NCBI GenBank assembly: GCA_900320225.1
Contig: ONRL01000037.1
Location: 1 to 42,200 of the forward strand
Reading direction: 5' to 3'
Length of the DNA: 42,200 nucleotides
Origin: an uncultured Lentisphaerota bacterium
GTDB taxonomy: Bacteria > Verrucomicrobiota > Kiritimatiellia > RFP12 > UBA1067
The notes under the pieces are model-generated. The model searched no databases and was not told the DNA's origin. It was given only the letters and a program-made list of their open reading frames with translations. Shown in pieces: positions 8,661-12,402 of the stretch (the stretch's first letter is position 1; each line of letters opens with the position of its first letter). The translations under genes were made by a program, and so were the position numbers.

Positions 8661-8745
8661 GGAGGGCCGCGCTCCGTCGCGGCCGTAAGGTGGGGCGAGC
8701 CGTCCCGGCGAGCCGCATGGTGGGGCGAGCCGTCCCCGGCGAGCC
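8661..8745. repeat. REP cluster: one GGAG-type and two GTGG-type hairpins
   Basis: The GGAG-type copy (8661-8684) has arms GGCCGCG/CGCGGCC, a T-to-C change matched on both sides. The GTGG-type copies are at 8690-8714 and 8720-8745, in direct orientation. They fill the gap between the thioesterase promoter and the 3' end of the next gene. Confidence 0.85.
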
Positions 8746-8759
8746 GCGCAATTCGCGCG

Positions 8760-9380
8760 CTATTCGGCGTCTCGCACAGGACGAACAGACTGCACGCCGC
8801 CGAGATCGTCGTCCGCATCGCCAAAGACCACCGCCTTGAAGAACTGCATGGTGGGGAGAGCCGTCCCCGGCGAGCCGCCGCGGCTCGGCGAGACGCCTCG
8901 CCCTACCTCCTCCGTCACCGTCCCCCACGATCCCTCCAGCGTCGCCGCGCCCTTCCACGTCACCGGCGCGTCCGGCACGTTCCACTGCGCCTTCGGCGGA
9001 TCGAACGCGACGTTCGCGAAGTCCGGCGTGCCATCCGCCTTCATCGGGAACGACGCGATCCGGAAGTCGCTCGCCGCATCCTGCGGGTCAAGCCCCAGCG
9101 CGTAGCACGCCCACACCGGACGCCCGTTCGCCGCCATCGCCTTCGCGGCCGCCTCGTACGCCTCATACTCGTCGACCACGCTCGGAACGTGCGCCCGCAG
9201 CCACGCATACGGAACCGGAACCGGCGTCGTTTGCGTTTCCGAGACGGGCGGCAGGTCGTACGTGACGATGCCGAACGCGCCGTACTGCCGCGCCAGCGGC
9301 TCGCCGGGGACGGCTCGCCCCACCAGCAGCAGCAACGCCGCCACGGCCAATTTACAACTCAAAACTCTCAACTTTCTCAT
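8760..9380 (-). CDS. Small exported protein of unknown function with in-frame REP segments
   Basis: The 206-aa product has a good ribosome site (AAGGAG, 8 nt) before the ATG at 9380 and a signal-peptide core (residues 9-20, KLAVAALLLL). The residues straight after the core, VGRAVPGEPLA, are REP-encoded (9298-9323), so the putative cleavage site lies in repeat-derived sequence. The middle (VPYAWLRAHVPSVVDEYEAYE, then YALGLDPQDAASDFRIASF) resembles the C-terminal module of large PVC surface proteins. Near residue 160 a pair of inverted REPs (8851-8906) codes for VGRGVSPSRGGSPGTALPT before FFKAVVFGDADDD. The gene may be a decayed tail of a larger protein re-equipped with a signal peptide. The start overlaps the transposase stop by 4 bp (ATGA). 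Function unknown. Confidence 0.6.
   Translation of the reverse strand: MRKLRVLSCKLAVAALLLLVGRAVPGEPLARQYGAFGIVTYDLPPVSETQTTPVPVPYAWLRAHVPSVVDEYEAYEAAAKAMAANGRPVWACYALGLDPQDAASDFRIASFPMKADGTPDFANVAFDPPKAQWNVPDAPVTWKGAATLEGSWGTVTEEVGRGVSPSRGGSPGTALPTMQFFKAVVFGDADDDLGGVQSVRPVRDAE
8851..8906. repeat. Inverted pair of GTGG/GTAG REP hairpins inside a coding region
   Basis: Copies at 8851-8876 (GTGG foot) and 8882-8906 (inverted, foot CTAC, that is GTAG) face each other 5 bp apart, a BIME-like arrangement. Both are read through in the 206-aa protein. Confidence 0.85.
9298..9323. repeat. GTGG-type REP hairpin at a signal-peptide junction
   Basis: A 26-bp copy (arms GCCG/CGGC, loop GGGA in this orientation) codes for VGRAVPGEP right after the hydrophobic core of the 206-aa exported protein. 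Confidence 0.85.
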
Positions 9381-10246
9381 TGTTCTTCTCCTTTTAAATG
9401 GTGGGGTTCACTTACAGGGTGGGGCGAGCCGTCCCCGGCGAGTCGCCCAGGGTGGGGCGAGCCGTCCTCGGCGAGCCGCCCAGGGTGGGGCGAGCCGTCC
9501 TCGGCGAGCCGCGGCTCGGCGGGACGCCTCGCCCCACCTTCTCCATGCGGCTCACCCAGAGGGTTCGCCCTACCCGGCTCGGCGGGACGCCTCGCCCCAC
9601 CTGTCGCCCCACCTGTCTGCCGTCCGGTCACCGGATTGAATGCAATCCAATAGCGCCATTCGTCCTGCAGGCCAACCAGCCCCTTGCGGACTGGATTCTC
9701 ACGAATGTAATGCCACTTTTCGGCAAGCTCGCTCTCATTCCTGATGCGGTGCTCAAAACAATCGCTTTGAAAGCGGATGCCTGCCGTTTTCCTCAAAAAC
9801 CCCTTCCACGATCCACAAGTCGCCTTGCAGTTTCCGGGCGGGAAAGTCGCAAGCATGTGCAAATGATCTGGCATGATCAGGAAAAGGTACAAAAACCATC
9901 TTCCATGTTCGTGGTAGAATTTCGCTGCGGCGAGTATCTTTTCTGCAACAGCAAGAAAAGGCTTTCCGCCTCTCTCCGCCGCATTGACCGTCACAAACTG
10001 GACAATGGGGCCCTGAACCGGAAATGGCGGCAACCCGTGCGGAAGCTTCCGACGTACCGGTAGGGCGAACCCTCCGGGTGAGCCGGGTGGGGCGAGCCGC
10101 CCAGGGTGGGGCGAGCCGTCCTCGGCGAGCCGCCGCGGCTCGGCGGGACGCCTCGCCCCACCAAGCGGCTCGCCCAGAGGGCTCGCCCCACCTTCGCCCC
10201 ACTGCTCACCCGGAGGAAACTTGACGACCTGCTCTATCGACGCCAT
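9377..10246 (-). CDS. REP-associated tyrosine transposase (RAYT, Y1/IS200-like)
   Basis: The 289-aa frame contains a RAYT core at residues about 65-208. RRKLPHGLPPF and FVTVNA open the fold, MPDHLHML supplies the HxH metal motif (H128, H130), and WHYIRENPVRKGLV supplies the catalytic Tyr (Y180) of a single-Tyr HUH nuclease. RAYTs bind and cleave REP hairpins and are thought to have spread them. Here residues about 12-63 and 208-282 are translated from REP arrays that flank the core on both sides. The ATG at 10246 is the only in-frame start I find before the core, but it has no clear ribosome site; a REP-derived tail runs to the stop. The stop overlaps the next start by 4 bp. All core motifs look intact, so the enzyme may be active if it is translated. 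Confidence 0.85.
   Translation of the reverse strand: MASIEQVVKFPPGEQWGEGGASPLGEPLGGARRPAEPRRLAEDGSPHPGRLAPPGSPGGFALPVRRKLPHGLPPFPVQGPIVQFVTVNAAERGGKPFLAVAEKILAAAKFYHEHGRWFLYLFLIMPDHLHMLATFPPGNCKATCGSWKGFLRKTAGIRFQSDCFEHRIRNESELAEKWHYIRENPVRKGLVGLQDEWRYWIAFNPVTGRQTGGATGGARRPAEPGRANPLGEPHGEGGARRPAEPRLAEDGSPHPGRLAEDGSPHPGRLAGDGSPHPVSEPHHLKGEEQ
9419..9600. repeat. REP array, six hairpins, downstream flank of the RAYT core
   Basis: Copies lie at 9419-9444, 9452-9477 and 9485-9510 (direct), and at 9513-9537, 9549-9573 and 9576-9600 (inverted). Arms change together (GCCG/CGGC, GGCG/CGCC, ACCC/GGGT) so pairing is kept. The array is read in frame as the C-terminal tail of the transposase; shorter fragments continue to about 9612. 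Confidence 0.9.
10060..10191. repeat. REP array, four hairpins plus a half copy, upstream flank of the RAYT core
   Basis: Copies lie at 10060-10084 (GTAG foot, arms ACCC/GGGT), 10106-10131 (GCCG/CGGC), 10137-10161 (inverted, GGCG/CGCC) and 10167-10191 (inverted, GCCC/GGGC). A half copy starts at 10087 and another trace follows at 10194-10220. The array is translated as the N-terminal extension of the transposase. Confidence 0.9.
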
Positions 10247-10278: not shown

Positions 10279-10304
10279 GAATGCGCTCACTTCGTTCGCT
10301 ATTC
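10279..10304. repeat. Short palindrome at the 3' end of the Fib_succ_major gene
   Basis: The sequence has GAAT/ATTC outer arms and an inner GC-TC-AC-TTC-GT-TC-GC core. It repeats the REP design of paired arms broken by a TC/TC (GA/GA) mismatch around a 3-nt loop, with different bases. The stop codon of the Fib_succ_major gene (10299-10301) lies within it. Confidence 0.4.
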
Positions 10305-11234
10305 GGTGAACCCTTGGACAGGACGAACAGACCGCCCGTAGTAGCGGCTGTCGTCGTACGTGTAGTGGTAGCCCGAGTAGAAGTCCAACCCGTAGGCGTA
10401 GTCGTAGTCCGAGTACGGGACGGACGACCAGTAGTAGCCGTACGAACCGGAATCGCTGAGCGAAGTCCCGCCGCCGTAGCCGACGCAGGGGAGGAAGATG
10501 CTCGCGGAGGCGTACGCACCTCGGCCCTTGACGAGATACCCTTGGACGCCGTTCTGCGTAGTCCACGTCCAGTCACATTTGCCGGCGAGGTCGGAGAGTT
10601 CCTGATACGTCGGCATGCGCCAACTGCCGCCCCAATGGACGTGCGCCGCGTCATGCGCCGGCGCGAGGACGCCGCCCTCCGTGATCCAGCCGTCGTTCTT
10701 CAGCGTGGCAATGCTCATGTCGTAGGTCGGCGTGTTGCTTCTACTAAACGAGAAGTTCGCCGATGAGCCGTCGGTAGCAACCCACTTGTTGTTCTCGCGC
10801 TTGTAGCCCACCGTGTCGCCCCACCAGAAGTAGTAGCCGTATTCCTCCGGCTTCGAAGCGCCCACGTTGCACTCCGCCCAGTACGGGCCGCCCTCCCACA
10901 GCTGCACGCCGCCGAGCCCGATTGTCACAACGAATGACGCGTTGGTGAGCAACAGCGCGCCGCCGAAAGACGAGGCGAAGTCGATCACATGCGAATTCGC
11001 GCCCGCTACAATGTTTCTCTGTGTGAAGGTCGCGCTCGCGTCATCCGTGTTGATCGTGATCTCGGCGACGGCGTTCGCGGGGAGCGTCCCGCCCACCGTG
11101 TATTCGACCGTCGCCTTGCCCGAGTAGGGATACGACTGGTGGAACTTCGTCACCTTCACGGTGTTGGTGATCTCCGCCATCGCGCCCACCGCCACCGCGG
11201 CGACGACGCCCATTATCATCAGTTTTGCTTTCAT
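10299..11234 (-). CDS. Exported Fib_succ_major (TIGR02145-like) C-type-lectin-fold protein
   Basis: The 311-aa protein has a signal peptide (MKAKLMIMGVVAAVAVGAMA), a beta-sandwich-like N-terminal domain (about 25-110), and a C-terminal domain of the Fibrobacter succinogenes major paralogous type. The latter has GPYWAECNVGASKPEEYGYY, WRMPTYQELSDLAGKCDW and the closing YYWSSVPY through RSVRPV. About 45 residues before the end are crowded with Tyr, Asp, Ser and His, nearly all with NNC codons (TAC, GAC, CAC), the pattern seen in variable regions of diversity-generating retroelement targets; no reverse transcriptase is in the window. The ATG at 11234 has AAAGGA 8-9 nt upstream. These proteins are thought to be surface-displayed; the ligand is unknown. 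Confidence 0.8.
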   Translation of the reverse strand: MKAKLMIMGVVAAVAVGAMAEITNTVKVTKFHQSYPYSGKATVEYTVGGTLPANAVAEITINTDDASATFTQRNIVAGANSHVIDFASSFGGALLLTNASFVVTIGLGGVQLWEGGPYWAECNVGASKPEEYGYYFWWGDTVGYKRENNKWVATDGSSANFSFSRSNTPTYDMSIATLKNDGWITEGGVLAPAHDAAHVHWGGSWRMPTYQELSDLAGKCDWTWTTQNGVQGYLVKGRGAYASASIFLPCVGYGGGTSLSDSGSYGYYWSSVPYSDYDYAYGLDFYSGYHYTYDDSRYYGRSVRPVQGFTE

Positions 11235-11279: not shown

Positions 11280-11405
11280 GGCTCGGCGGGACGCCTCGCC
11301 CTACCTTGCGGCTCACCCAACAGGTGGGGCGAGCCCTCCGGGCGAGCCGCTACGGCTCGGCGGGACGCCTCGCCCCACCCGGCTCGGCGGGACGCCTCGC
11401 CCTAC
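11280..11405. repeat. REP array, four hairpins, in the 11235-11610 intergenic region
   Basis: Copies lie at 11280-11304 (inverted, GTAG foot), 11324-11348 (direct, arms GCCC/GGGC), 11354-11378 and 11381-11405 (inverted, GGCG/CGCC). A fragment lies at 11310-11319. The rest of this 376-bp gap holds the 68-bp element below; 11543-11610 shows nothing recognisable. Confidence 0.9.
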
Positions 11406-12112: not shown

Positions 12113-12137
12113 GGTCACGCGGGACGCGTGCCCCTAC
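12113..12137. repeat. GTAG-foot REP variant upstream of vapB
   Basis: A 25-bp hairpin with arms CACGCG/CGCGTG, loop GGA and foot CTAC (GTAG on the minus strand). Length, loop and foot match the GTGG family, but the arms differ and lack the GA/GA mismatch. Confidence 0.6.
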
Positions 12138-12285: not shown

Positions 12286-12402
12286 GGCTCGCCCGGAGGG
12301 CTCGCCCCACCACGGGAGGGCCGCGCCCCGTCGCGGCCATCTGGGGGACGGCGGCTCGGCGGGACGCCTCGCCCCACCGGTCGCGACGGAGCGCGACCCT
12401 CC
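12286..12402. repeat. Mixed REP cluster in the 12063-12410 intergenic region
   Basis: GTGG-type copies at 12286-12310 (arms GCCC/GGGC) and 12353-12377 (GGCG/CGCC) alternate with GGAG-type copies at 12315-12338 (GGCCGCG arms) and 12379-12402 (GGTCGCG arms). The last ends 8 nt beyond the stop codon of the gene at 12411. The rest of this 348-bp gap is the 68-bp element and the hairpin at 12113. Confidence 0.88.

Follow-up and report, generated by a model that had tools for sequence, protein, structure and literature searches.

The window, as we call the whole 42,200-nucleotide stretch of DNA analysed here, carries on its minus strand a gene that probably encodes a functional or until recently functional RAYT (TnpA_REP), with an intact HUH-Tyr active site, whose own REP array has grown into gene ends that tolerate it. 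The open reading frame (ORF) runs without a stop from an ATG at 10246 to a TGA at 9379-9377 and encodes 289 amino acids.

The catalytic core occupies residues 65-212 (9611-10054, minus strand) and is recognised by profile, by PDB sequence and by fold. The NCBIfam model REP_Tyr_transpos (NF047646) matches the ORF with an E value of 4e-17 and 62.4 bits, below its curated cutoff of 80 bits, which is an annotation threshold and not a biological feature; other members of this RAYT family score 62-75 bits and likewise stay below it. By sequence, the best PDB match is 4er8_A (E=1e-5), and the same chain ranks first among the fold matches to the AlphaFold model (E=2.6e-8, TM 0.66 on target); this entry is E. 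coli TnpA_REP (YafM). In an alignment of 26 relatives, the catalytic motif H128-L-H130 and Y180 are invariant, as are Q160 and N184. These relatives, together with the agreement with 4er8 in sequence and fold, confirm the intact single-tyrosine HUH core proposed in a preliminary description of this DNA. Compared with the orthologue L017, the core differs mostly at synonymous sites (dN/dS ~0.08, a rough value since dS is near saturation), and on this codon comparison it is under purifying selection. The AlphaFold model is confident over the core, with a mean pLDDT of at least 88 per ten-residue block over residues 81-210, and both tails are of low confidence and predicted to be disordered. Membership of the RAYTs is indicated by the HUH motif and single catalytic Tyr in an IS200/IS605-like fold, by the inverted REPs of a dispersed family that flank the gene in both orientations at both ends, and by the form of the REP itself, a GT[AG]G foot plus an imperfect hairpin. 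The window RAYT is present as a single copy in its genome. The genome also has another, distantly related RAYT (L013:1183-2091, G000:C293), in which repeat peptides (GGSRSCATEGGVVVADARERVPP) are encoded in frame in the leader and in the core, ahead of the WQ motif.

In the REP unit, the GT[AG]G foot is followed by GGC-GA-N4-TCC-N4-GA-GCC, a hairpin whose stem contains tandem G-A mismatches. The N4 arms occur as GGCG/CGCC, GCCG/CGGC, GCCC/GGGC and ACCC/GGGT, and the stem arms are fully paired in 53 of 62 genomic matches, compared with a mean of 21.6 and a maximum of 33 in re-paired random controls. Since the arms covary, the hairpin is real. Minimum-free-energy folding of single REPs, which was weakly better than that of shuffles, was set aside as hairpin evidence and covariation was used instead.

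The order of elements within the gene is leader, N-terminal array, core and C-terminal array. The leader, residues 1-14 (MASIEQVVKFPPGE; 10205-10246, minus strand), is ancestral, with homologous leaders in L055 (MASYEQIVG) and L136 (MAAYEQVIKFEGE). The N-terminal array, located by hairpin search at 10058-10204 (about residues 15-63), contains four hairpins and half-copies; two hairpins lie on the plus strand (10060-10084 and 10106-10131) and two on the minus strand (10137-10161 and 10167-10191). The C-terminal array, located in the same way at 9418-9612 (about residues 212-276), contains six hairpins and half-copies, with 9418-9446, 9452-9477 and 9485-9510 on the plus strand and 9513-9537, 9549-9573 and 9576-9600 on the minus strand. 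Its start coincides with the native C terminus: the proteins of relatives extend little beyond F(D/N)RxTGxE, as in ...FDRxTGxELPHR followed by the stop. Beyond this point, the frame of the window gene runs through REPs on to the next gene, and its last 13 residues are not REP. The core itself holds no REP insertion. REP-derived residues (about 16-63, 48 residues, and about 212-276, 65 residues; RLAEDGSPHPGR is an example of an array-encoded peptide) amount to ~113, so that over one third of the predicted protein is repeat-coded, which calls for caution in annotation.

This anatomy bears out the earlier statement that a four-copy and a six-copy hairpin array are in frame with the core, as the hairpins at 10060-10191 and 9418-9600 lie within a stop-free ORF. 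The accompanying estimate of about 50 N-terminal REP-derived residues agrees with our count; the figure of about 75 at the C terminus corresponds to the length of the tail rather than to its REP part. It had also been suggested that repeats eroded the ends of the gene. The involvement of the ends holds, but with an old leader and a native C terminus still recognisable, insertion fits better than erosion.

Ten hairpin copies lie inside this 870-bp ORF, compared with 62 pattern matches in the whole 5.2-Mb draft genome, on which the genome-wide counts were made by pattern searches; chance would give far less clustering than this. Other copies are found close by but outside the gene, and the remainder are scattered across the genome. 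Downstream, hairpin search located two copies at 8690-8745 (plus strand) and an inverted pair at 8850-8906, the latter inside a secreted-protein ORF (8760-9380) that contains a further copy at 9298-9323 (minus strand), where its apparent signal peptide ends. Upstream, a four-copy array at 11280-11405 precedes a FISUMP/Lcl_C-like gene, and pattern search gave two further copies at 12286-12377 (minus strand). We examined 35 REP arrays in the window's genome, including the RAYT's own N array. Twelve of the 34 others lie in ORFs extending at least 50 residues to both sides, and by inspection or Pfam only about three of these ORFs are plausible genes with in-frame REPs (L099:1215-2495, L102:658-3000 on the minus strand, and L080:1214-1918), a count made by judgement from spanning ORFs and Pfam rather than with a trained gene finder. 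Because only about three of the 34 other arrays sit in plausible genes, the pile-up of REPs at the RAYT is local, and REPs within genes are uncommon elsewhere in the genome. The products of L102, L080 and L099 are glycosidase-like, unknown and a metallophosphatase, respectively. A codon-usage classifier for intragenic REPs was dropped, as it separated coding from non-coding frames poorly. Several REP families coexist in the genome: at 12113-12137 the window has a single copy of another family (GGGCACGCGTCCCGCGTGACC), which is close to the in-gene REP of the G004 and G076 RAYTs.

The nearest named relative found, Verrucomicrobia bacterium UBA4286, belongs to another genus and has an orthologue (L017/L037, 73% identity) with the same layout: leader, in-frame REPs of the same family, core, and in-frame REPs. 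The upstream neighbour, a FISUMP/Lcl_C-like secreted protein (10299-11234, minus strand, in the window), is also found upstream of this orthologue. The concern raised in the preliminary description, that close homologues might have the same tails with no repeat homology, did not materialise: the tails of this closest homologue do have repeat homology. Its REP copies differ from those of the window in number and order, and the distance from leader to core is 159 nt, compared with 192 nt in the window, both being multiples of three. The repeats thus turn over without loss of the frame. Of the six real copies of this REP family in the genome of the orthologue (G076), four are inside the RAYT gene, in line with the reading that we prefer.

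By analogy with its family, the RAYT would recognise single-stranded GTGG- or GTAG-footed hairpins; by the guide rule of PMC8266576, cleavage would be directed at CC by GTGG feet and at CT by GTAG feet. Its gene sits amid a cluster of its own REPs, where this substrate is at its densest. Single-strand cleavage and joining of GTGG/GTAG hairpins, recombinational expansion of the array, or both may have generated new REP copies at the locus, and these would have been inserted between the short native leader and the core and again at the native C terminus. Because the repeat DNA is GC-rich and stop-poor and its length is a multiple of three, the frame would have stayed open, and both arrays would be read by ribosomes. 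The added peptides would form disordered tails that leave the active site untouched and are tolerated. That the REPs were mobilised in this way, that the gene is translated in the cell and that the tails are neutral is what we infer from these features, and mere tolerance of the tails is the economical reading.

The wider family yields evidence both for this reading and against mere tolerance. About 35 RAYT loci were gathered from scans of 144 related genomes and 115 family members, and many family RAYTs carry in-frame GTAG-type hairpins, compared with a codon-shuffled background of mostly 0.02-0.3 per gene. In a sister clade that is well supported in the tree (97/94, nine members), all 13 complete genes (L042, L043, L047, L048, L049, L054, L055, L057, L058, L118, L121, L128 and L135) have a plus-strand REP in the beta1-alphaA loop and only minus-strand REPs in the HUH-Tyr loop; some also have minus-strand copies in the first of these loops. 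Although the sites are fixed, the hairpin sequence differs between genomes. In most members of this clade, the hairpins are dispersed repeats of the respective genome (60 copies in G007, 39 in G004, 28 in G003, 27 in G011 and 20 in G071). In G034 (4 Mb), only two copies were found with two mismatches allowed, both inside the RAYT gene, and the two are told apart by a compensatory change in the stem, which substitutes one amino acid. The window RAYT and L017 form a separate lineage, and their grouping with L055 was rejected (p 0.003).

Neither the fixed sites and orientations nor the gene-only copies of G034 are predicted by tolerance. They would be explained if the embedded REPs were kept for work in cis, as linked substrate or as an autoregulatory DNA or mRNA site, the peptide being a by-product; we consider this unlikely but not far-fetched. 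The placement of differing hairpins at two fixed loops, the stem compensation in G034 at the cost of an amino acid, and the small number of copies that G076 has outside its RAYT locus are all consistent with it. However, the sister clade is one lineage, so its fixed sites may go back to a single inheritance; copies that were already paired when recently inserted would also give good hairpins; and the window RAYT lacks the two core-loop sites. We also entertain, tentatively, the broader possibility that the RAYT genes of this verrucomicrobial family maintain REPs as a built-in component, with inverted hairpins as linked cis elements whose position, orientation and frame are fixed while the sequence follows the REP family; the window gene would then be an extreme form. 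The family-wide recurrence makes a role for in-gene REPs testable, and synonymous recoding could separate the DNA role of a hairpin from the encoded peptide.

The reading that we prefer, a RAYT whose own REPs have grown into tolerated gene ends, has the arrays translated together with the core. Stops are absent from five of the six frames across the N array and from four of six across the C array; with most frames open in this way, being in frame is weak evidence when taken alone. No in-frame ATG, GTG or TTG occurs between ATG1 and TTG72, the latter lying in frame just inside the core, 12 codons before beta1. The earlier claim that no in-frame start exists between the first array and the core is therefore correct up to residue 65 but overlooks this TTG. 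A start at TTG72, or no translation at all, would make the N array an untranslated leader and the frame through it fortuitous. Such a start would give a length near that of E. coli TnpA_REP, the openness of the arrays in most frames agrees with it, and Di Nocera et al. 2013 (PMC3733652) warn that many N-terminal REPs are annotation errors. Nevertheless, we judge it distinctly unlikely. The stretch around this codon, RRKLPHGLPPFPV, shows only synonymous differences from the 73%-identical UBA4286 orthologue; TTG72 is CTG there; RK.L.H is conserved in distant relatives; and the ATG belongs to a leader homologous to those of other RAYTs. The residues before TTG72, RRKLPHG, are conserved with synonymous changes only, and since no start lies between ATG1 and TTG72, the N array is translated if RRKLPH is. 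No conserved start was found downstream of the array, and on these comparisons the long 289-aa protein is the best reading, in keeping with the earlier proposal of REP-derived tails translated with the core.

It is improbable that the repeat-coded tails are functional parts of the protein that bind DNA, mediate oligomerisation or regulate the HUH core. Both are kept in the orthologue, and the C-terminal tail of E. coli TnpA_REP contacts the GTAG foot (PMC8266576), but the window tails are predicted to be disordered, their length and order differ between orthologues, and some relatives of the same family have no such tails. A pseudogene, in which an accidental open frame covers a dead RAYT and its arrays, is very improbable: the RAYT is single-copy and GC-rich repeats easily give open frames, but the catalytic residues are intact, dN/dS is low and the layout is conserved in another genus.

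The protein resembles E. coli TnpA_REP (YafM, PDB 4ER8, group 2) in its fold, its HUH-Y residues and the REP arrays around the gene. E. coli TnpA_REP, however, has 165 aa and REPs outside the gene, whereas the window RAYT has 289 aa and REPs inside it. The tail peptides also recall the Rickettsia palindromic elements (RPE), mobile palindromes from which many unrelated proteins gain in-frame peptides; the window REPs are set beside RPE by description only, the likeness being the repeat-coded in-frame peptides. To our knowledge, RPE have no associated tyrosine transposase, nor do they cluster in a single gene responsible for their processing. A closer parallel is subclass 2.4 of the tnpA_REP genes, reportedly the same as RAYT group 4 of Bertels. 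According to section 13 of Quentin et al. 2018 (PMC6006769), genes of this subclass contain frame-preserving internal REPs, mostly between HuH and Tyr. The window gene shares with them cognate REP hairpins within an unbroken frame, but its multi-copy arrays lie at both termini, and it has DHLH, FQ and YIRENP with no core insertion where Table 1 of that paper gives NH[IFV]H, WQ and YIxNNP. The sister clade has the HUH-Y insertion in common with subclass 2.4 and a second site as well. With their tandem G-A mismatches, the window REPs resemble the long REPs of the E. coli group, whose stem is bulged (PMC8266576). The main text of PMC3733652 describes intragenic GTAG REPs, commonest in the verrucomicrobium Opitutus terrae, marks RAYT genes whose 5' or 3' ends are overlapped by REPs, and reports REP clusters coding 43-82 aa in other genes; these share with the window REPs in frame inside ORFs, and a RAYT with both ends built from four and six REP copies is not described in that text. 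The statement that REPs normally lie outside the RAYT gene is therefore true in general, but not of subclass 2.4 (PMC6006769) or of the RAYT-end overlaps (PMC3733652). In-frame REP insertion in RAYT genes is already known in kind from these two papers; what goes beyond their main texts is the double-ended multi-copy tails, the recurrence across a bacterial family, and the fixed in-gene REP pair of the sister clade.

What keeps RAYTs matched to their REPs in the long term, and why RAYTs are kept single-copy, are standing questions; a gene that encodes the enzyme and holds its substrate hairpins in frame would be a simple way to keep both linked.

The surroundings of the gene gave further minor observations. 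The downstream ORF at 8760-9380 (minus strand), apparently secreted, has an ATG that overlaps the RAYT stop (ATGA). A diversity-generating retroelement (DGR) was considered for the FISUMP gene from its variable C-terminus; a search of the genome turned up no reverse transcriptase. The RAYTs of the window, L017, L055/L116, L065 and L136 all lie close downstream of FISUMP/Lcl_C-like genes. In addition, the window RAYT, L017, L055 and L136 share a MA[SA]xEQ-type leader, and their cores fall into two lineages, as if swapped behind one leader.
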